From Candidatus Manganitrophus noduliformans (lineage in GTDB: Bacteria > Nitrospirota > Nitrospiria > SBBL01 > Manganitrophaceae), in the NCBI RefSeq assembly GCF_012184425.1, contig NZ_VTOW01000002.1, positions 558,001 through 622,000 on the forward strand: a stretch of DNA of 64,000 nt, in the 5' to 3' direction. The notes under the pieces are model-generated. The model did not search any database, had not been told where the DNA came from, and worked only from the letters and a program-made list of their open reading frames with translations. The position numbers and the translations under genes were made by a program. Of the stretch, positions 15,785 to 39,286 are shown piece after piece (position 1 is the stretch's first letter; each line of letters begins with the position of its first letter).

Positions 15785-18199
15785 TTAAACCTTTTCGATG
15801 ACCAGCTTGAAATGGCCGTCCGGCAATTTTTCATTCTTTAAAATCTTATGCCCCTCGGCCTGAACGCTTCGTGGAACATTCCGGATCGGCTCCCCGTCGT
15901 CGATGATGACCTCGAGCAGCTGGCCGGCATCCATTTCTTCCAACTGCAGTTTCGTCTTCACAAAGTTCATGGGGCAAGCGACACCCGAAAGGTCCAGACT
16001 GGCATCGACTTCTTTTTGTACGCTCATATCCACCTCATTCTGTATCACGGACGAAATCGGCTCTCTCTTCCTTAACTTCAAGCCGGCATCGAGACGATCA
16101 TATGCTTCATGACACTCCCGGACAAAGGCATCGGCCAGATCGAGAGTCTTCCGGACCGATTCGAGCTGCGGATCGAAGGAGACCCACTTTCCGAGATCCT
16201 CCGTGAAGTTTTCGAACCGTTCCGTGACGATCCCCTGCTCCACCAGCTTGTGCTGGAACTCCTTGAGGATCTGATCTTCATGCGGCAAATCGACGCCGAA
16301 CGGAATCAACAAGGCGCGGCAGCAGACCATGATCGCCTGTTTGATGTCGGCGATCGCCTCGTCCGACTGCCCACGGGCGAGGGCGGCGGAGGCCTTCTCG
16401 ATCGACTGGCTCCCCATCCGAAGATGGTGCTCGATCATATCGATCACTGTCCCGGCGCACTCCCCCGGACCGAGGTCGTCGAGCGAGAAATCCTGATCGC
16501 CGTTGTAATCTTGATAATACTCCGGCGCCTCCTGCGGCGTGGGGATCTGGATGAACTTCTCCAGCCGGGCGGAGAGGGCGTCGCGGCCGAAGCGCTCGAT
16601 GAACTGGTTGAACGCTTCCTCCCCCTGCCGATTCTCGCGATAGGCCTTGATGAGCTCGATCACCGCCGAAGGAATGTTCTTGGCAGGGATCTTCAGCTTG
16701 GAGGCCCCGATCACCGAGCGCTCCGCGCTCACCCCCCCTCCCAAATGGAGTTGGTAGTGCGGCGCCAGCTTGCCGTGAACCTTTTTGCCGACCCCATGAA
16801 AACCGATCCCGGCGATATGGTGATGGCCGCACGAATTCGGACAGCCGGAGATCCGTATCCGAAGACCGTTGATGTCTTCGAATTCCGGAAGATCTTTCTC
16901 GAATCGGTCGACAATGGCCGCGCCCAATCCCATCGAGGAGGTCAATGCCAGCTGGCAGCTGTCGGCGCCCGGGCAGGCAATTACATCGACGGCGCGTTCC
17001 GCCCCCGCGCCGGCCAACCCGATTCGATCGAGCGCGGCGTAAAGCGCCGGAAGGTCCTGCCGGCGGACATGGTGAAGAATCAAGTTTTGCTGATGGGTCG
17101 TCCGGATCGCATCCGGGGAAAACCGATCGACGATATCGGCCATTCCGCGCAGCTGGGCGGCGGTGATGTCTCCGAGAATTAATTTGATCTGGACGGCGCA
17201 GATGCCGGGCATCGGCTGCGGGATGATATTCGTCCGAAACCACTTCTCATACGCCGCGTTTCCGTGGTGACCATTCCCCCCGTTCTGAACCAAGTCAAGC
17301 TCAAGGGAGGGAGCCTTCGGTTGCGGGGCCGGCAGAGCGGGATAGACTTTGCCCGATTCCTTAAGGAGGGCCAATTCTTCCGCCACCTTATTGTTGAATT
17401 GATCGCTCCCCCACTTTTCAATAATGAATTTCATCCGGGCCTTGCTCTTTGTTTTCCGGTCTCCGTTCGCATCGAAAATTTTGAGGATCGCTTCGCAGAA
17501 AGGCAAAACCTCTTCCATCGGCAAAAATTCGGTATAGAGCTTCGCCAGTTTCGGATGAGACCCCAACCCTCCTCCGACAAAAACTTTGAAGCCGTACTCC
17601 GTCCGGCCCTGAACGTCACGGCTCGTCGCGATGAACCCGATATCATGGATCGACGCCAAACCGCACTCGCTCTGGCACCCGGAGAAGGAGATTTTGAATT
17701 TGCGGGGAAGATCTTGGTTGATCGGATTCCGCAGCAGGTAGTAGGCGACCTTCTCTGAAATCGCGGTCACATCGAATAATTCAGTGGGGCAGACTCCTGC
17801 AAGATGACAGGCGGTCACGTTGCGGACGGTGTTGCCGCACGCCTCGCGGGTCGTTAATCCAGATTCGGCCAGCCGGGTCATCACGGCGGTGATGTCGTCC
17901 AATTTCACAAAATGGTACTGGATATCCTGCCGGGTGGTGACATGTCCCTTGCCGGTCGAATAATGCTCGGCGATTTCCGCCAAAGCGCGAAGCTTCCGAC
18001 TATTCAGAACCCCCGACGGGATCTTGACCCGGACCATCTGAAACCCTTTTTGCCGTTGTCCATAGATCCCATGTTGGAGCCGGAAACGCTTGAACTTTTC
18101 TTCAGGAATCTCTTTTTTCTTCAGACGTTCCACCTGAAGACCAAAGTTCTCAATTTCCTTGACGATTTCTTCCGGAAGGGTGGTTTGAATTGGGCCCAT
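15785..18199 (-). CDS. Siroheme nitrite/sulfite reductase with C-terminal TusA domain
   Basis: 804 residues. Two ferredoxin-like/siroheme halves are followed by a helical region (about 580-715, including IKQAIMVCCRALLIPFG, HEPN-like) and a TusA domain (about 733-804; SLDLSGVACPMNFVKTKLQ, Cys742). Unusually, both halves have a full C-x5-C plus C-x3-C set for a [4Fe-4S]-siroheme centre: Cys131/137/175/179 (ACHLAGVC, SGCQSECG) and Cys409/415/453/457 (ACPGADSC, SGCPNSCG). Six-electron reduction of sulfite or nitrite is expected; the sulfur-carrier domain favours sulfite/sulfane sulfur but this is inference. No siroheme genes are adjacent. Confidence 0.88.
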   Translation of the reverse strand: MGPIQTTLPEEIVKEIENFGLQVERLKKKEIPEEKFKRFRLQHGIYGQRQKGFQMVRVKIPSGVLNSRKLRALAEIAEHYSTGKGHVTTRQDIQYHFVKLDDITAVMTRLAESGLTTREACGNTVRNVTACHLAGVCPTELFDVTAISEKVAYYLLRNPINQDLPRKFKISFSGCQSECGLASIHDIGFIATSRDVQGRTEYGFKVFVGGGLGSHPKLAKLYTEFLPMEEVLPFCEAILKIFDANGDRKTKSKARMKFIIEKWGSDQFNNKVAEELALLKESGKVYPALPAPQPKAPSLELDLVQNGGNGHHGNAAYEKWFRTNIIPQPMPGICAVQIKLILGDITAAQLRGMADIVDRFSPDAIRTTHQQNLILHHVRRQDLPALYAALDRIGLAGAGAERAVDVIACPGADSCQLALTSSMGLGAAIVDRFEKDLPEFEDINGLRIRISGCPNSCGHHHIAGIGFHGVGKKVHGKLAPHYQLHLGGGVSAERSVIGASKLKIPAKNIPSAVIELIKAYRENRQGEEAFNQFIERFGRDALSARLEKFIQIPTPQEAPEYYQDYNGDQDFSLDDLGPGECAGTVIDMIEHHLRMGSQSIEKASAALARGQSDEAIADIKQAIMVCCRALLIPFGVDLPHEDQILKEFQHKLVEQGIVTERFENFTEDLGKWVSFDPQLESVRKTLDLADAFVRECHEAYDRLDAGLKLRKREPISSVIQNEVDMSVQKEVDASLDLSGVACPMNFVKTKLQLEEMDAGQLLEVIIDDGEPIRNVPRSVQAEGHKILKNEKLPDGHFKLVIEKV

Positions 18200-20175: not shown

Positions 20176-20571
20176 ATGAGCCCTTTTTTTCGAAAAAGCC
20201 GCCAGCGGCAGATGATTCTCGATACCCTCTCCGACATGAAAACCCATCCGACCGCGCAAGAAATCTTCGCCCGGGTCCGGGAGGTCGACTCCCAGGTCGG
20301 GCAAGCCACCGTTTACCGAAATCTCCGGATCTTAAAAGAACAGGGTGAAATTATCGAGCTGAGTTTCGGAACCGGCGAGAAACGCTACGATCGAAACGTC
20401 AGCCGCCACGAGCATTTTACCTGCCGACGATGTGGAAAAATCGAAGATATTTACCCGAACTACCGCTCGCTGACCGGAAGTCTTTCGGAAAAAGGCTTCC
20501 AGATCGATGAGTGGAGAATAGAGGCCTTCGGCATCTGCCAAGGTTGCATTGAACCCAATCAACCGCATTGA
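20176..20571 (+). CDS. perR: Fur-family peroxide-responsive regulator (PerR-like)
   Basis: 131 residues. The winged helix contains HPTAQEIFARV and GQATVYRNLRILKEQGEI; the dimerisation domain has a structural zinc site with Cys83/Cys86 (CRRC) and Cys121/Cys124 (CQGC). The regulatory metal ligands of PerR (His37, Asp85, His91, His93, Asp104 in Bacillus) correspond to His24, Asp72, His78, His80 and Asp91 here; presence of Asp72 in RYDRNVSRHEH favours PerR over Fur. It is followed by rubrerythrin, a typical PerR target, and preceded by a matching palindromic operator. Confidence 0.82.
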   Translation: MSPFFRKSRQRQMILDTLSDMKTHPTAQEIFARVREVDSQVGQATVYRNLRILKEQGEIIELSFGTGEKRYDRNVSRHEHFTCRRCGKIEDIYPNYRSLTGSLSEKGFQIDEWRIEAFGICQGCIEPNQPH

Positions 20572-20614
20572 TTTGCGGTCTGACACAACAGACGAGAAAG
20601 GGGGAAGGAAAAAG

Positions 20615-21043
20615 ATGGCAAAACCACTCAACGGAACCAAAACCCACGACAACCTGAAGCATGCGTTCGCCGGAGAATCCCAGGCGAACCGCCGGTATCT
20701 TTATTTTGCTCGGAAGGCCGATATCGAAGGCCAGCCCGACATCGCCGGCGTTTTTCGCGACACGGCGGAAGGCGAAACCGGCCACGCTTTCGGCCATTTT
20801 GATTTTCTAAAAGAGGTCGGCGATCCGGCCACCGGATCACCCGTCGGGGATACCGCCGTCAATCTTCAGTCGGCGATCGACGGCGAGACCTATGAGTACA
20901 CACAGATGTACCCCGGCTTCGCCAAGATGGCGCGCGAGGAAGGATTCGATGAGATCGCCGCATGGTTTGAAACCCTCGCCCGCGCCGAAAAATCCCACGC
21001 GGGCCGGTTCCAGAAGGCCCTCGATTCGATCAAAGGGAAATAA
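20615..21043 (+). CDS. rbr: Rubrerythrin (diiron domain only)
   Basis: 142 residues from ATG 20615. The four-helix ferritin-like domain shows [57 protein letters not shown] and [14 protein letters not shown], giving the Glu/His ligands of a diiron peroxidase site. The C-terminal rubredoxin domain of classical rubrerythrin is absent, so electrons must come from another carrier. It reduces hydrogen peroxide in the cytoplasm. Second gene of the perR operon. Confidence 0.9.
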
Positions 21044-21071
21044 CCGCCTCTCTTATTGACTCCAAACCGGA

Positions 21072-21101
21072 GGGTGCGCCGGCGAGACCGCCGGCGCACC
21101 C
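21072..21101. repeat. Strong hairpin between rubrerythrin and the Fe-S gene
   Basis: Perfect 13-base arms GGGTGCGCCGGCG and CGCCGGCGCACCC with loop AGAC. No U-run follows (CCATCTTTC). It may stabilise or partially terminate the perR-rbr transcript. Confidence 0.7.
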
Positions 21102-21127
21102 CCATCTTTCAAAGATTAGGATCATCC

Positions 21128-22378
21128 ATGTCGCCGGACCCCTTAAGCCTGATTTCAGAAAACAAGAGAACCCTCGATCAGGAATTCGCGCGCGTCGCCG
21201 ACATCTGCAACGGATGCCGCCGCTGTTTTAATCTCTGCCCTTCGTTCGATCAGATGTTCATCCGGATAGACGATCGGACCGGCGAGGCCGACAGCCTCGC
21301 CAAAAAAGACCAGGACGACATCACCGATCTCTGCTACTATTGCAAGCTCTGTTATAACCACTGCCCCTACACTCCGCCGCATCACTTCAACCTCGACTTC
21401 CCTCGCTTGATGCTTCTCGGAAAAGCCGAGCGGGCCAAGACCCACCGCCCCACCTTTCGCGATCGGATTCTGGTCGACACCGATTGGGTCGGCCGATGGG
21501 GACGCCGGTTGGCGCCGCTTCTCAACTGGGCCAATTCGGTCCGCGCCGTCCGCCTCTTGATCCATCGATGGTTCGGCATTCACAAAGATCGCATTCTCCC
21601 CAAGATCGCGACCGAGACTTTCACCGAATGGCGGGCAAAAAATCAGCCCCCTCAATCGGCGCCGGCGACCAAAAAGGTCGCGCTGTTTCATACCTGCTAT
21701 GTCAACTACAACGCCCCCGATATCGGGAAAGCGTCGGTGCAGGTGTTGGAGAAGAACGACATCGAAGTCATCACCCCCCCGCAGCGCTGCTGCGGGATGC
21801 CCTATTTCGATGTCGGCGATATCGAATCGGCCCGGGAAAAAGCCCGATTCAATATCCGGTCGCTCGAAGAGGTGATTCAGGCCGGCTACGACATCGTCGC
21901 CCCGATGCCGACTTGCAGCCTGATGTTAAAAAAAGAGTATCCCGCTTTATTGGGAGACGAAGCAAGGACCGTTTCCGAGCACACGTTCGACCTCTGCGAG
22001 TACCTGATGCGGCTCAACAGCGAGGGAAAGTTAAACAAGGAATTTAAAAACCCGATCGGAAAGATTTCCTATCAAATCCCCTGTCATCTGCGGGATCAGA
22101 ACATCGGCTACAAATCGCGCGATCTGATGAAGCTGATTCCGGGAACCACTATCGATGTGATCGAGAAGTGCTCGGCGCACGACGGCACCTGGGGGATCAA
22201 GACCGAGTACTTCGACGAATCGATGAAGACGGCGAAGCCGCTCTTCCGCGCCATTGAGGAGGGGAATCCCGATATGGTTGCAACCGACTGCCCCCTGGCC
22301 GGAATGCAAATCCTCCAGGGGACCGGGAAAGAGCCGCTTCATCCGATTCAAATTGTGAAAAAGGCATACGGATTATGA
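21128..22378 (+). CDS. Heterodisulfide reductase-related Fe-S protein with two CCG domains
   Basis: 416 residues. N-terminal ferredoxin part has two [4Fe-4S] motifs, CNGCRRCFNLCP and CYYCKLCYNHCP, followed by two cysteine-rich CCG-like domains (HTCYVNYNAPDIGKA ... PPQRCCGMPYFDVGD, and IPCHLRDQNIG ... IEKCSAHDGTWG) as in GlpC and HdrB/D. The last CCG motif is degenerate (CSAHDG). It probably passes electrons between a soluble donor and the adjacent diiron rubrerythrin; this is inferred from conserved neighbourhood with DUF3501. ATG 21128 has AGGAT upstream; the frame is open to 21056 across the hairpin. Confidence 0.85.
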   Translation: MSPDPLSLISENKRTLDQEFARVADICNGCRRCFNLCPSFDQMFIRIDDRTGEADSLAKKDQDDITDLCYYCKLCYNHCPYTPPHHFNLDFPRLMLLGKAERAKTHRPTFRDRILVDTDWVGRWGRRLAPLLNWANSVRAVRLLIHRWFGIHKDRILPKIATETFTEWRAKNQPPQSAPATKKVALFHTCYVNYNAPDIGKASVQVLEKNDIEVITPPQRCCGMPYFDVGDIESAREKARFNIRSLEEVIQAGYDIVAPMPTCSLMLKKEYPALLGDEARTVSEHTFDLCEYLMRLNSEGKLNKEFKNPIGKISYQIPCHLRDQNIGYKSRDLMKLIPGTTIDVIEKCSAHDGTWGIKTEYFDESMKTAKPLFRAIEEGNPDMVATDCPLAGMQILQGTGKEPLHPIQIVKKAYGL

Positions 22379-22402
22379 GGGCGACGCACGCGTCGCCCCT
22401 AC
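22379..22402. repeat. Palindromic repeat, GGGCGACGC type
   Basis: Perfect arms GGGCGACGC and GCGTCGCCC around AC, followed by CTAC. It begins on the base after the stop of the Fe-S gene. Related to the other GTAGGGG...CCCCTAC palindromes. Confidence 0.7.
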
Positions 22403-22418
22403 AACCTGGAGCAGAACG

Positions 22419-23009
22419 ATGAAGAAAATCGACGCTGAAGAACTTCATTCACTGGCTGAGTACGAAAAAATAAGAGATTCCTATCGTCAAGGGATCATGG
22501 AGGAAAAGAAGAAGAGGCGGATCCAAGTCGGCCCTTACGTCTCTTTGACCTTCGAGAATCGGGAGACCATTCTCTTCCAGATACACGAGATGTTGCGCGT
22601 AGAGCGGGTCGAAGATCCCGCCAAGGTCCAGGAGGAGGTTGACGTCTATAATGATCTCATCCCGGACGAAGGGGAGCTCTCCGCGACCCTTTTTATCGAA
22701 ATCACCGAGGAAGCCAAGATTAAAGAGGTTTTGGACCGGCTGATCGGAATCGACAAACCGAATGTCGTTTATTTCCAGATCGGGAAGAAAAAGGTCCCTG
22801 CTGTTTTTGAGGGGGGCCGAAGCACCGAGGAGAAGATCAGCGCGGTCCATTATGTCCGGTTCAAATGGAATCCGACGCTCATTGAAGCGTTCCGAAGCGA
22901 AAAGGAAAACTATCTGGTTGCGGAACACCCCCACTATAAAGAACGGGCGTCGATTTCGGAAGAGACGAAAAAAGCGCTGCTGGAAGATTTGGATCAGGCG
23001 GACGGATAA
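22419..23009 (+). CDS. DUF3501 family protein
   Basis: 196 residues, soluble, rich in Glu/Lys. It contains RRIQVGPYVSLTFENRETI, QIHEMLRVERVEDPAKVQEE, YNDLIPDEGELSATLFIEI and VHYVRFKWNPTLIEAFR, the conserved blocks of DUF3501. The family is regularly encoded beside rubrerythrin and the HdrD-like Fe-S protein, as here, so it is likely a partner in peroxide detoxification. No catalytic motif is apparent. Last gene of the operon before a terminator. Confidence 0.88.
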   Translation: MKKIDAEELHSLAEYEKIRDSYRQGIMEEKKKRRIQVGPYVSLTFENRETILFQIHEMLRVERVEDPAKVQEEVDVYNDLIPDEGELSATLFIEITEEAKIKEVLDRLIGIDKPNVVYFQIGKKKVPAVFEGGRSTEEKISAVHYVRFKWNPTLIEAFRSEKENYLVAEHPHYKERASISEETKKALLEDLDQADG

Positions 23010-23058: not shown

Positions 23059-23292
23059 CTATTTCTTCTTGCGAATGTAGACCTTGAACACCTTTCCTTC
23101 CTGAATTAAATCCAAGAACTCGTTTCCGCTGCTCTTGCACCAGGCGGGCATATCTTTCTTGATCCCTTCATCGTCGGAGAGGATCTCCAGCACTTGGTCG
23201 ATCTCCATCTGCTTGATCTTCTTTGAAGTCAAAATCACCGGAATCGGACAGAAGAGTCCCAGGGTGTCGAGTGTCTGATCCGCAACAATCAT
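23059..23292 (-). CDS. tusA: TusA-family sulfur carrier protein
   Basis: 77 residues. The TusA signature LDTLGLFCPIPVILTSKKIK carries the persulfide-accepting Cys15 in the CPxP motif. A stretch with an additional Cys (MPAWCKSSGNEF) matches the C-terminal half of the fold. It lies 30 bases downstream of an atypical cysteine desulfurase gene, the natural sulfur donor for TusA, so the two probably work together in sulfur transfer. Confidence 0.9.
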   Translation of the reverse strand: MIVADQTLDTLGLFCPIPVILTSKKIKQMEIDQVLEILSDDEGIKKDMPAWCKSSGNEFLDLIQEGKVFKVYIRKKK

Positions 23293-23322: not shown

Positions 23323-24498
23323 TTATGTCCGAGGCGACAGGCTGGTGTAAATCGGCGAGACCTGCCGGATTTCTTCGACGCACCTTGGAAAAATGGAGAG
23401 GACCGTCTTGATCTCCTCCTCGGTCGTTCCCATCCCCAGGCTGAAGACGATCCCCCCCTGGGCCACGTTCGCCGGAAATCCGGTGGCCGTGAGGACAGGC
23501 GAGATCTTCAACGCCTCGGCGCTGCACGACGATCCGCTCGCCGCGAAGATCCCTTGTTTTTCCAAGAGTCGAATCAGCGCCTCCCCGTCGACAAACTCCA
23601 CCGCAAAGCTGGCGATGTGAGGAAGCCGGTGGATCGGATCCCCGGTCAGGTGAATGAGGGGGACCCGCTCCGTCAGTCCGACGATCAGCCGATCCCGCAG
23701 CGCCGCCAATCGGGGCGCTTCGGAAGGGAGGCGCTTTCTCGCTTCGAGGGCCGCCACTCCCATTCCGACGATCGCCGCGACATTCTCGGTCCCGCTCCGC
23801 CGACCTCCCTCTTGGATTCCACCCTCGATCAGAGGATGAACGCGCGTTCCACGCCGAATATAGAGCGCCCCGGCCCCCTTCGGTCCGTAAAACGGCTGGG
23901 CCGAGAAGGAGGCCAGATCGATCCCGAGGGAATCGACACGGAACGGAATCATCCCGACGGTGGCGACGGCATCGGTGTGGAGGAGGACCCCCGCCGCCTG
24001 CGTGATCGAGGCGATCTCCTGAATCGGCTGCACCGTTCCGATTTCATTGTTCGCATGCATGATCGACACCAAGACCGTCTCATTTCGAAGCGCCGCCGCG
24101 ACCTGTTCCGGGCGGACCCGCCCTTTTTGATCGACCGGAAGCCAGGTGACCGCCACCCCCTCGCGCTCCAGGTGCTTGAGGGGGTGAGCCACGGAGAAGT
24201 GCTCGATCACCGAGGTGATGATGTGGGTCTTTTTCTTCGGACGCGCGGCAAGAATGCCCTTGATCGCAAGGTTGTTCGCTTCGCTCCCCGAGGCGGTAAA
24301 AACGATCTCCCGCGCCTCGGCGCCGATCAGCTCCGCCACCCGCTTGCGCGCCTCTTCGATTCCCCTTCGGGGAATCTCCCCCGCCGCATGCCGACTCTGC
24401 GGGTTGCCGAAGTGCTCCGCCAGGAAGGGGAGCATGGCCTCGCGCGCCGCCGGCAGAAGCGGTGTGGCTGCGATATGATCGAGGTAGATTTTTTTCAT
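23323..24498 (-). CDS. Cysteine desulfurase homologue lacking the PLP lysine
   Basis: 391 residues, full NifS/IscS-like length. Conserved blocks: IYLDHIAATPLLPAAREAM, FTASGSEANNLAIKG, SVIEHFSVAHPL (His100), SIMHANNEIGTVQPIQEIA, GPKGAGALYIRRGT and FAASGSSCSAEALK with the persulfide Cys325. However, the usual SAHK Schiff-base motif reads SAQP: Lys is replaced by Pro202 and the preceding His by Gln201. The PLP-contacting Gln of DAxQ is Ala179. It may not form an internal aldimine, so a different role (sulfur shuttle, or PLP bound otherwise) must be considered. Paired with tusA. Confidence 0.85.
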   Translation of the reverse strand: MKKIYLDHIAATPLLPAAREAMLPFLAEHFGNPQSRHAAGEIPRRGIEEARKRVAELIGAEAREIVFTASGSEANNLAIKGILAARPKKKTHIITSVIEHFSVAHPLKHLEREGVAVTWLPVDQKGRVRPEQVAAALRNETVLVSIMHANNEIGTVQPIQEIASITQAAGVLLHTDAVATVGMIPFRVDSLGIDLASFSAQPFYGPKGAGALYIRRGTRVHPLIEGGIQEGGRRSGTENVAAIVGMGVAALEARKRLPSEAPRLAALRDRLIVGLTERVPLIHLTGDPIHRLPHIASFAVEFVDGEALIRLLEKQGIFAASGSSCSAEALKISPVLTATGFPANVAQGGIVFSLGMGTTEEEIKTVLSIFPRCVEEIRQVSPIYTSLSPRT

Positions 24499-24556
24499 AA
24501 CGACGAATAATAAGCGGGATGGAAAGAGGTTGTCAAGGACCGGCGGAAGGATGGTC

Positions 24557-24600: not shown

Positions 24601-24640
24601 AATAAAAAACCGGCCCCCCCTTTTCGAAGGAGGGCCGGTT
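24601..24640 (-). terminator. Terminator of the desaturase gene
   Basis: Minus strand: arms AACCGGCCC and GGGCCGGTT, followed by TTTTTTATT, 15 bases after the stop codon. Confidence 0.8.
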
Positions 24641-34295: not shown

Positions 34296-34607
34296 ATGGA
34301 AAAAAAGAAGTTGGGCATTCTCTTATCAACCCCCCCGGAAGACAAAAACCTGGCCACCGTCGCCTCTCTCGCAAACGAGGCCCTTCGACAGGGGGTCGAC
34401 ACCTATCTCTACCTGATCGACGAGGGGGTGCGGAATGTAGACCGTCCCGAGATGGAGCGGCTGAAGCAGAATGGGGTGAAACTCTTTCTCTGCGCCTACG
34501 GCGCGCGGCGCCGCGGCATTCCGACGAGCGACAAGGCGGTCTTCTGCGGGCTGGTCGTTCTCTCCGATCTGGTGAAAGGATGTGACCGTTTCGTCACATT
34601 TAATTGA
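34296..34607 (+). CDS. DsrE-family sulfur-relay protein
   Basis: 103 residues. The DsrE fold pattern is clear: KLGILLSTPPEDKNLATVAS, GVDTYLYLIDEGV and KQNGVKLFLCAYGARRRGI. The Cys in KLFLCAYG corresponds to the sulfur-binding Cys of DsrE/TusD. It starts a three-gene run (DsrE, DsrF, DsrH-like), the TusBCD/DsrEFH pattern that passes persulfide sulfur from TusA onwards. No tusE/dsrC gene is present nearby. Confidence 0.8.
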   Translation: MEKKKLGILLSTPPEDKNLATVASLANEALRQGVDTYLYLIDEGVRNVDRPEMERLKQNGVKLFLCAYGARRRGIPTSDKAVFCGLVVLSDLVKGCDRFVTFN

Positions 34608-34611
34608 CCGA

Positions 34612-34959
34612 ATGACACGCAGCGTCGTCGTCCTGATTCGAAGCGATCCCGAGACAAGTCACCGCGCCGTCGAAGGGGTCCGGATCGCCCTCGGTCTCGC
34701 CTCCGGAGAACATGCGGTGGAGGTGATCCTCACCGGCCGCGCGCCGCTGCTCTTGACTCCCGATACCGACACGTTGGTCGACGGCGAGATGGCGGAGAAG
34801 TTCCTCTCCACCCTTCAGGAATTCATCCCCCCCTTTTATATCGATCAGGAAAGCGCCAAAGAAGTCGATCTCTCCGAGAGCGATTACAAGACGGTCCCCC
34901 TCTCAAAAAAAGAGATCGCCGAAAAAATTGCGGCCGCCCAACGCTTCGCCCTTTTTTAG
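34612..34959 (+). CDS. DsrF-like DsrE-superfamily protein
   Basis: 115 residues from ATG 34612, four bases after the DsrE stop; the frame is open to 34582 inside that gene. Sequence VVVLIRSDPETSHRAVEGVR, IALGLASGEHAVEVILTGRA and KKEIAEKIAAAQRFALF fits the DsrE/F superfamily with its nucleotide-like binding loop. It has no Cys at all, so it probably is a structural partner of the Cys-bearing DsrE subunit. Confidence 0.7.
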   Translation: MTRSVVVLIRSDPETSHRAVEGVRIALGLASGEHAVEVILTGRAPLLLTPDTDTLVDGEMAEKFLSTLQEFIPPFYIDQESAKEVDLSESDYKTVPLSKKEIAEKIAAAQRFALF

Positions 34960-38902: not shown

Positions 38903-39286
38903 TTAAGCCAGACTGTTTTTCTTCTTGTAATCGGCAATGGCGGCTTTGATCGCATCTTCCGCCAACACCGAGCAATGAATCTTGACCGGGGGCAGATTCA
39001 GTTCGTTGACGATGTCGGTATTCTTGATTTGCGTCGCCTGATCCAGCGTCTTTCCCTTGATCATCTCCGTCGCCAAGCTCGAACTGGCGATGGCGCTGCC
39101 GCAGCCAAATGTCTTGAATTTGGCATCTTCGATGACGCCGTTGTTCACTTTCAGCTGAAGCTTCATCACATCTCCGCACTCCGGCGCGCCGACAACCCCC
39201 GTTCCGACTTCAGGATCGGTTTTATCCAACGATCCGACATTCCGAGGGTTATTGTAATGGTCGATCACTTTATTGCTGTATGCCAT
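38903..39286 (-). CDS. iscU: Fe-S cluster scaffold protein IscU
   Basis: 127 residues. Scaffold cysteines Cys37 (PECGDV), Cys62 (FGCGSAIASS) and Cys105 (KIHCSVLAE) with the Asp39 that aids transfer are present, as is the HscA recognition motif LPPVK (98-102). GGAGG precedes the ATG. Confidence 0.97.
   Translation of the reverse strand: MAYSNKVIDHYNNPRNVGSLDKTDPEVGTGVVGAPECGDVMKLQLKVNNGVIEDAKFKTFGCGSAIASSSLATEMIKGKTLDQATQIKNTDIVNELNLPPVKIHCSVLAEDAIKAAIADYKKKNSLA

Follow-up and report, generated by a model that had tools for sequence, protein, structure and literature searches.

A multi-phylum family of NifS/IscS-fold proteins without the Schiff-base lysine, linked to TusA, DsrE and IscU genes: candidates for a persulfide relay

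Within the window (the 64,000-nucleotide stretch of Candidatus Manganitrophus noduliformans DNA analysed here), a full-length gene of the NifS/IscS class encodes a protein in which the lysine expected to hold PLP is replaced by proline, and this gene belongs to a large subfamily whose conserved trait, as read from aligned sequences, is the joint loss of the Schiff-base lysine, the glutamine of the DAxQ motif and the active-site arginine. The protein probably hands on sulfur that it has obtained from another protein, and not sulfur taken from cysteine. The reading that is modestly favoured here is that of a sulfur-transfer platform of NifS/IscS fold that no longer desulfurates cysteine, and in which persulfide would be relayed from TusA or DsrE to Cys325 and from there to a scaffold such as IscU. 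The lysine-less state is already known from two archaeal proteins, AfIscS and Methanosarcina acetivorans IscS1; when compared with the open-access literature, what is apparently new is the existence of a family that spans many phyla, the joint loss of the three residues, and the operon association with TusA, DsrE and IscU.

Roles for the three positions come from work on canonical enzymes. In DndA, the Schiff base is made with the lysine, and the carboxylate of cysteine is presumed to be held by Asn150, Gln178 and Arg353 (PMC3343029), so that the window protein, altered at the Gln and Arg sites, is without two of these three presumed ligands. In E. coli IscS, the K206A and Q183E variants have no desulfurase activity, R354K keeps it, and K206A still binds some PLP and forms intermediates slowly (PMC9978102). 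The preliminary description of this DNA had reported an intact, full-length reading frame, which is borne out (minus strand, ATG start), and it had correctly read Gln201, Pro202, Ala179, His100 and Cys325; codon 201 is CAG, where IscS has His. The replacement of the active-site arginine by Val351 had escaped it. The tusA gene that it placed downstream does start at 23292, 30 nt past the stop codon of the lysine-less gene, and the canonical IscS that it located elsewhere in the same genome is indeed intact, with the normal HK, DAAQ and R residues. A terminator-like hairpin sets the lysine-less gene apart from a fatty-acid desaturase gene upstream, and a near-consensus promoter match precedes the ATG, so that the gene looks like part of a two-gene operon with tusA; as evidence for a separate transcription unit, promoter match and hairpin are weak. 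All coordinates are collected in the table.

Table. Features of the window, with positions counted from its first letter
Feature	Position	Strand	Basis
TusA sulfur carrier, 77 aa, FCPIP motif, conserved partner (P0004)	23059..23292	-	Pfam PF01206
Lysine-less NifS/IscS-fold protein, 391 aa (P0002)	23323..24498	-	ORF, profile matches, AF2 model
Codon 202, Pro (CCG); Schiff-base Lys position (E. coli K206, DndA K200)	23893..23895	-	sequence; PMC9978102, PMC3343029
Codon 179, Ala; Gln position of DAxQ (E. coli Q183, DndA Q178)	23962..23964	-	alignment; PMC3343029
Codon 351, Val; Arg position, presumed cysteine carboxylate binder (E. coli R354, DndA R353)	23446..23448	-	alignment; PMC3343029
Codon 325, persulfide Cys; sole invariant Cys in the lysine-less family	23524..23526	-	alignment
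Codon 100, PLP-stacking His, invariant	24199..24201	-	alignment
Sigma-70-like promoter match TTGACA-18-TATTAT (11/12), just 5' of the ATG; consensus match only	24507..24536	-	1 found vs 0.9 expected in shuffles
Terminator-like hairpin with T tail, separating the lysine-less gene from the desaturase gene upstream	24608..24640	-	sequence scan
Canonical IscS of the same genome	39317..40534	-	profile match; residues HK, DAAQ, R
IscU of the canonical operon, possible acceptor	38912..39283	-	profile search (G000:C2:596912-597283)
Sulfite/nitrite reductase (two-repeat)-TusA fusion, TusA C-terminal	15785..18199	-	5 kb from the lysine-less gene

The assignment of the window protein to the fold type I PLP-enzymes of the NifS/IscS class follows from its match to Pfam Aminotran_5 (E 6.5e-71). 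Its best NCBIfam match is NifS TIGR03402, with 454.1 bits, under the cut-off of 530.75, and the score against the IscS equivalog is 345, under the cut-off of 643.2. An AF2 model, calculated for a single chain from an alignment of 41 sequences, has a mean pLDDT of 92.2, the sole segment below 50 being residues 326-329, which adjoin Cys325; it resembles known IscS, NFS1 and NifS structures with Z values of 48-56 (54-55 for E. coli IscS; 53-56 for E. coli IscS, human NFS1 and Archaeoglobus fulgidus IscS, AfIscS, together). With canonical E. coli IscS and NifS the protein shares the fold, the persulfide Cys, the PLP-stacking His and the pyridine Asp, but these enzymes have the Lys, Gln and Arg. 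Of the features of an active desulfurase, the window protein thus retains the fold and the persulfide Cys, and is without the aldimine Lys, the Gln/Arg pair and a curated score.

The extent of the trait was determined in an alignment of 203 sequences of the NifS/IscS class, in which 89 canonical homologues have all three residues, 111 are without the Lys, and three (L148, L155, L188) are of odd composition. The Gln of DAxQ is kept in none of the 111 lysine-less homologues (Ala 100, Val 7, Ser 3, Gly 1), and the Arg in none of those that have position 351 aligned (Val 70, Leu 33, Thr 4, others); an earlier set of 56 lysine-less and 58 canonical sequences gave the same joint loss. At the Schiff-base site itself the 111 proteins carry Gln (63), Ser (18), Pro (11), Asp (8), Val (5) and others, including Thr, and proline was rejected as a meaningful trait. 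With regard to the clade sharing the proline that was to be looked for in an alignment, the loss of the lysine is common to a large subfamily, but proline is not its conserved state, and the window gene is one member of that subfamily, not an isolated Lys-to-Pro oddity. All lysine-less members have His100, Ser102, Glu152, Asp176 and Cys325 (Cys325 in 111/111), the His at position 201, which contacts the phosphate, is often replaced, and the Ser/Thr phosphate residues are partly kept. Position 102, also missed at first, is Ser in 111/111 lysine-less proteins vs Ala in 82/89 canonical ones. Two Nitrospirota sequences, L148 (1382-2545, minus strand) and L155 (1980-3284, minus strand), have the Lys and lack Gln and Arg, have TusA and IscU as neighbours and are placed within the lysine-less group, as intermediates or reversions, and L188, with Lys, Arg and a Cys at the Gln site, groups with canonical enzymes. 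In L042, L047, L056, L066 and L088 (Thermodesulfobacteriota/Myxococcota-type), the site reads SGxxxGAPKG, the usual YGPKG also being altered.

One unusual residue, seen in one genome, could point to a sequencing error, a pseudogene or ongoing decay, and the orthologue of genome G003 (L008) has a frameshift close to the 3' end, for which an assembly error may be responsible. Several observations speak against this explanation, which is refuted by the orthologues and by dN/dS and can be regarded as practically nil in probability. The frame of the window gene is intact. The trait occurs in independent orthologues across the order and beyond: the site is without Lys in four of the five further genus genomes (Pro in L006, L008 and L009; Gln in L007), the fifth (G002) giving a partial match that does not cover it, and at least 10 genomes of the order have an orthologue without the Lys, the site being Pro, Gln or Ser. 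A sequencing artefact is rejected since these orthologues come from independent genomes, and an HK pair at the site was found in none of the orthologues of genus and order recovered with this site. Pairwise dN/dS, from pairs with unsaturated synonymous change, is 0.06-0.13, which indicates purifying selection, in agreement with the early judgement that simple decay was not at work. Neither does another lysine appear to take over the Schiff-base role: no other Lys is invariant in the family, and the best, K207 (96/111), belongs to the YGPKG motif that canonical enzymes also have.

Lysine-less members were found in Nitrospirota, Thermodesulfobacteriota, Planctomycetota (Scalindua), Nitrospinota, Elusimicrobiota, Aerophobota, WOR-3, Actinomycetota, Myxococcota and archaea. 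With a profile-score threshold of at least 565 bits, set from loci whose site residues were read, such a gene is present in about 120 of the 296 Nitrospirota genomes sampled. In trees calculated with the trait columns removed, a branch with SH-aLRT support of 98-100 separates the bacterial lysine-less sequences from the rest. Unconstrained trees put the archaeal AfIscS type among sequences that bear the lysine, but a single clade is not rejected by the AU test (p 0.80); one or two origins of the lysine loss are both possible on these sequence data. Most of 10 lysine-less genomes searched also have a canonical copy (G315 gave only lysine-less copies above the search threshold, and G323 is an assembly of 1.3 Mb).

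The window TusA matches PF01206 with 81.9 bits (cut-off 28.6, E 2.9e-23) and has its Cys-Pro motif within FCPIP. Neighbours were counted on the same strand and within 1.3 kb, and since some loci are short the counts are lower bounds; in the set made non-redundant at 85%, TusA adjoins 47/65 bacterial and 4/5 archaeal lysine-less genes vs 0/69 canonical ones, DsrE adjoins 4/65, 5/5 and 0/69, respectively, and IscU 42/65, 4/5 and 42/69. At 60% non-redundancy, TusA adjoins 8/21 bacterial and 2/2 archaeal lysine-less genes vs 0/24 canonical genes. As the lysine was lost only once or twice, these associations do not represent many independent events. The partners themselves retain key residues, the Cys-Pro being kept in 72/72 TusA-like proteins and the three Cys and the Asp in 59/59 IscU proteins. 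Archaeal genes of the AfIscS type lie in operons of the type TusA-DsrE-IscS(D)-IscU, and DsrE-like genes also occur on the opposite strand in several lysine-less members of the window's class. Other recurring neighbours are rhodanese and DsbD-like genes which, like DsrE, were confirmed by Pfam, and, by reading of the sequences, Rrf2-type regulators, thioredoxin and MnmA-like genes. Within the loci covered, no TusA was found near the gene in some lysine-less lineages (several Scalindua, Elusimicrobia, Nitrospinae), and no IscU adjoins the lysine-less gene in the window, its genus or its order, which makes the acceptor uncertain there; TusA is still paired with the gene in that order. A dedicated second IscU was sought in the window's genome and not found: apart from the IscU of the canonical operon, there are two NifU_N genes, and both adjoin SufS-like genes.

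The closest known counterpart is AfIscS (PDB 4eb5, 4eb7, 4hvk; D199K mutant 4r5f), 41% identical to the window protein, which likewise is without the Schiff-base Lys (Asp199), the Gln of DAxQ (Ala) and the Arg (Leu), has the equivalent of Ser102, keeps the persulfide Cys, the His and the Asp, and has the same fold (Z 53-54, rmsd 1.2-1.4). The genes of its near relatives have TusA, DsrE and IscU as neighbours. AfIscS differs in having Asp in place of Pro at the lysine site, and IscU adjoins most sampled genes of its type but not the window gene. According to a passage of PMC7585200 (refs 46-48), AfIscS has no desulfurase activity and provides a cysteine ligand to the [2Fe-2S] cluster bound by IscU. 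M. acetivorans IscS1, comparable with the window protein by its published description only, is annotated as a cysteine desulfurase, is without the essential lysine, lies beside IscU in a genome with other IscS copies, and formed inclusion bodies as a recombinant protein (PMC7585200). These precedents, AfIscS D199 and IscS1, also qualify the initial reading of the trait; they are the only ones found in the open-access literature on a lysine-less/TusA/IscU system, where no description of the multi-phylum family with its joint Lys/Gln/Arg loss and TusA/DsrE/IscU operon was found. The TusA/DsrE relays of sulfur oxidisers offer a further parallel in that TusA, DsrE and DsrE2 are also among the neighbours of lysine-less genes; to our knowledge, these relays have no lysine-less component of IscS fold.

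The persulfide relay that the preliminary description had thought conceivable is partly supported: the linkage to TusA, DsrE and IscU, the invariant Cys and the loss of both the Lys and the cysteine-binding residues agree with it. In such a scheme, TusA would be loaded from inorganic sulfur, either sulfide or sulfite by way of a reductase-TusA fusion or through carriers of DsrE type; sulfite, sulfide and thiosulfate are candidate sources. The persulfide sulfur would then be handed from TusA to Cys325, which would deliver it, or serve as a cluster ligand, to a scaffold, for which IscU is encoded next door in most relatives and the IscU of the canonical operon could serve in the window lineage; PLP, if bound at all, would be held non-covalently in a structural role. 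Fe-S assembly would in this way receive sulfur independently of cysteine, and the transfer, from TusA to IscS, would run opposite to that of E. coli, where TusA accepts sulfur from IscS. The site of TusA on E. coli IscS and that of IscU are adjacent and compete, both giving access to Cys328 (PMC11302665), and a hand-off from TusA through the Cys to IscU is therefore sterically reasonable. The direction of sulfur flow is not given by gene order. The reductase-TusA fusion of the window could be a sulfur source; it is fused in 6/6 genomes of the genus, exists as two separate genes in some related families, and was not seen as a conserved neighbour outside the genus among the lysine-less loci examined.

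The main rival to the relay is the role proposed for AfIscS, that of a structural partner that binds the scaffold and lends Cys325 to the nascent [2Fe-2S] cluster but carries no sulfur, sulfide arriving free or directly from TusA. AfIscS shares the triple loss and Ser102 with the family, its reported inactivity and cluster ligation (PMC7585200, refs 46-48, as summarised there) are in line with such a role, and the proximity of IscU in 42/65 bacterial relatives agrees with it; yet it leaves unexplained why the persulfide carriers TusA and DsrE are so frequently adjacent, and why the pairing with TusA is kept in the window's order despite the absence of an adjacent IscU, and it is considered unlikely, if deserving of attention. 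Quite improbable is a regulatory pseudoenzyme that would form heterodimers with canonical IscS, or compete with it for TusA or IscU, and so tune the flow of sulfur from cysteine. The canonical paralogue present in most lysine-less genomes examined is compatible with such regulation, as are the adjacent gene pairs of Elusimicrobia (L104, L113, L075) and the divergent pair of Methanophagales (L087), but a pure regulator needs neither an invariant persulfide Cys (111/111) nor a TusA and IscU of its own, and the two genes lie about 15 kb apart in the window's genus.

Very doubtful, too, is a lysine-independent PLP enzyme that would hold the cofactor non-covalently and act on another substrate or a non-cysteine sulfur donor. 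The retained pyridine Asp and stacking His, the partly kept Ser/Thr phosphate residues and the residual PLP binding and slow intermediates of E. coli IscS K206A (PMC9978102) lend it some credit, but the Arg and Gln presumed to hold an amino-acid carboxylate are gone, the phosphate-binding His201 is often replaced, and AfIscS is reported, in the PMC7585200 passage (refs 46-48), to be without desulfurase activity.

Cysteine is the textbook sulfur source of Fe-S clusters. Yet there are anaerobes that draw on sulfide by a route not yet defined (PMC8351635); a lysine-less IscS fed by TusA is a concrete candidate for such a route and would also give AfIscS a sulfur donor. A broader proposition, for which the balance tips somewhat toward doubt, is that a widespread branch of the ISC system, independent of the PLP lysine and composed of TusA, often DsrE, lysine-less IscS and IscU, builds Fe-S clusters in bacteria and archaea from inorganic sulfur without cysteine, AfIscS being the one member of known structure. 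These genes will probably be labelled as cysteine desulfurases by annotation pipelines, and metabolic reconstructions would then credit about 120 of the 296 Nitrospirota genomes sampled, as counted by profile score, with an activity that is probably absent.

Some further arrangements were recorded. In L075, L104 and L113, the adjacent canonical and lysine-less IscS genes are accompanied by rhodanese, MnmA-like, IscU and Rrf2-like genes. In the window, genes for Fur, rubrerythrin, a CCG-domain Fe-S oxidoreductase and DUF3501 lie in a row at 20176-23009 (plus strand), convergent with the tusA pair, and two tandem DsrE-family genes (34305-34944, plus strand) lie near the canonical ISC operon, the genome having 9 DsrE matches in all. 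Lastly, on the Nitrospiraceae chromosome CP070737, an open frame (L190, 1-2652, plus strand) joins the C-terminal part of a molybdopterin oxidoreductase to a canonical NifS domain, which represents either a natural fusion or a missed stop.
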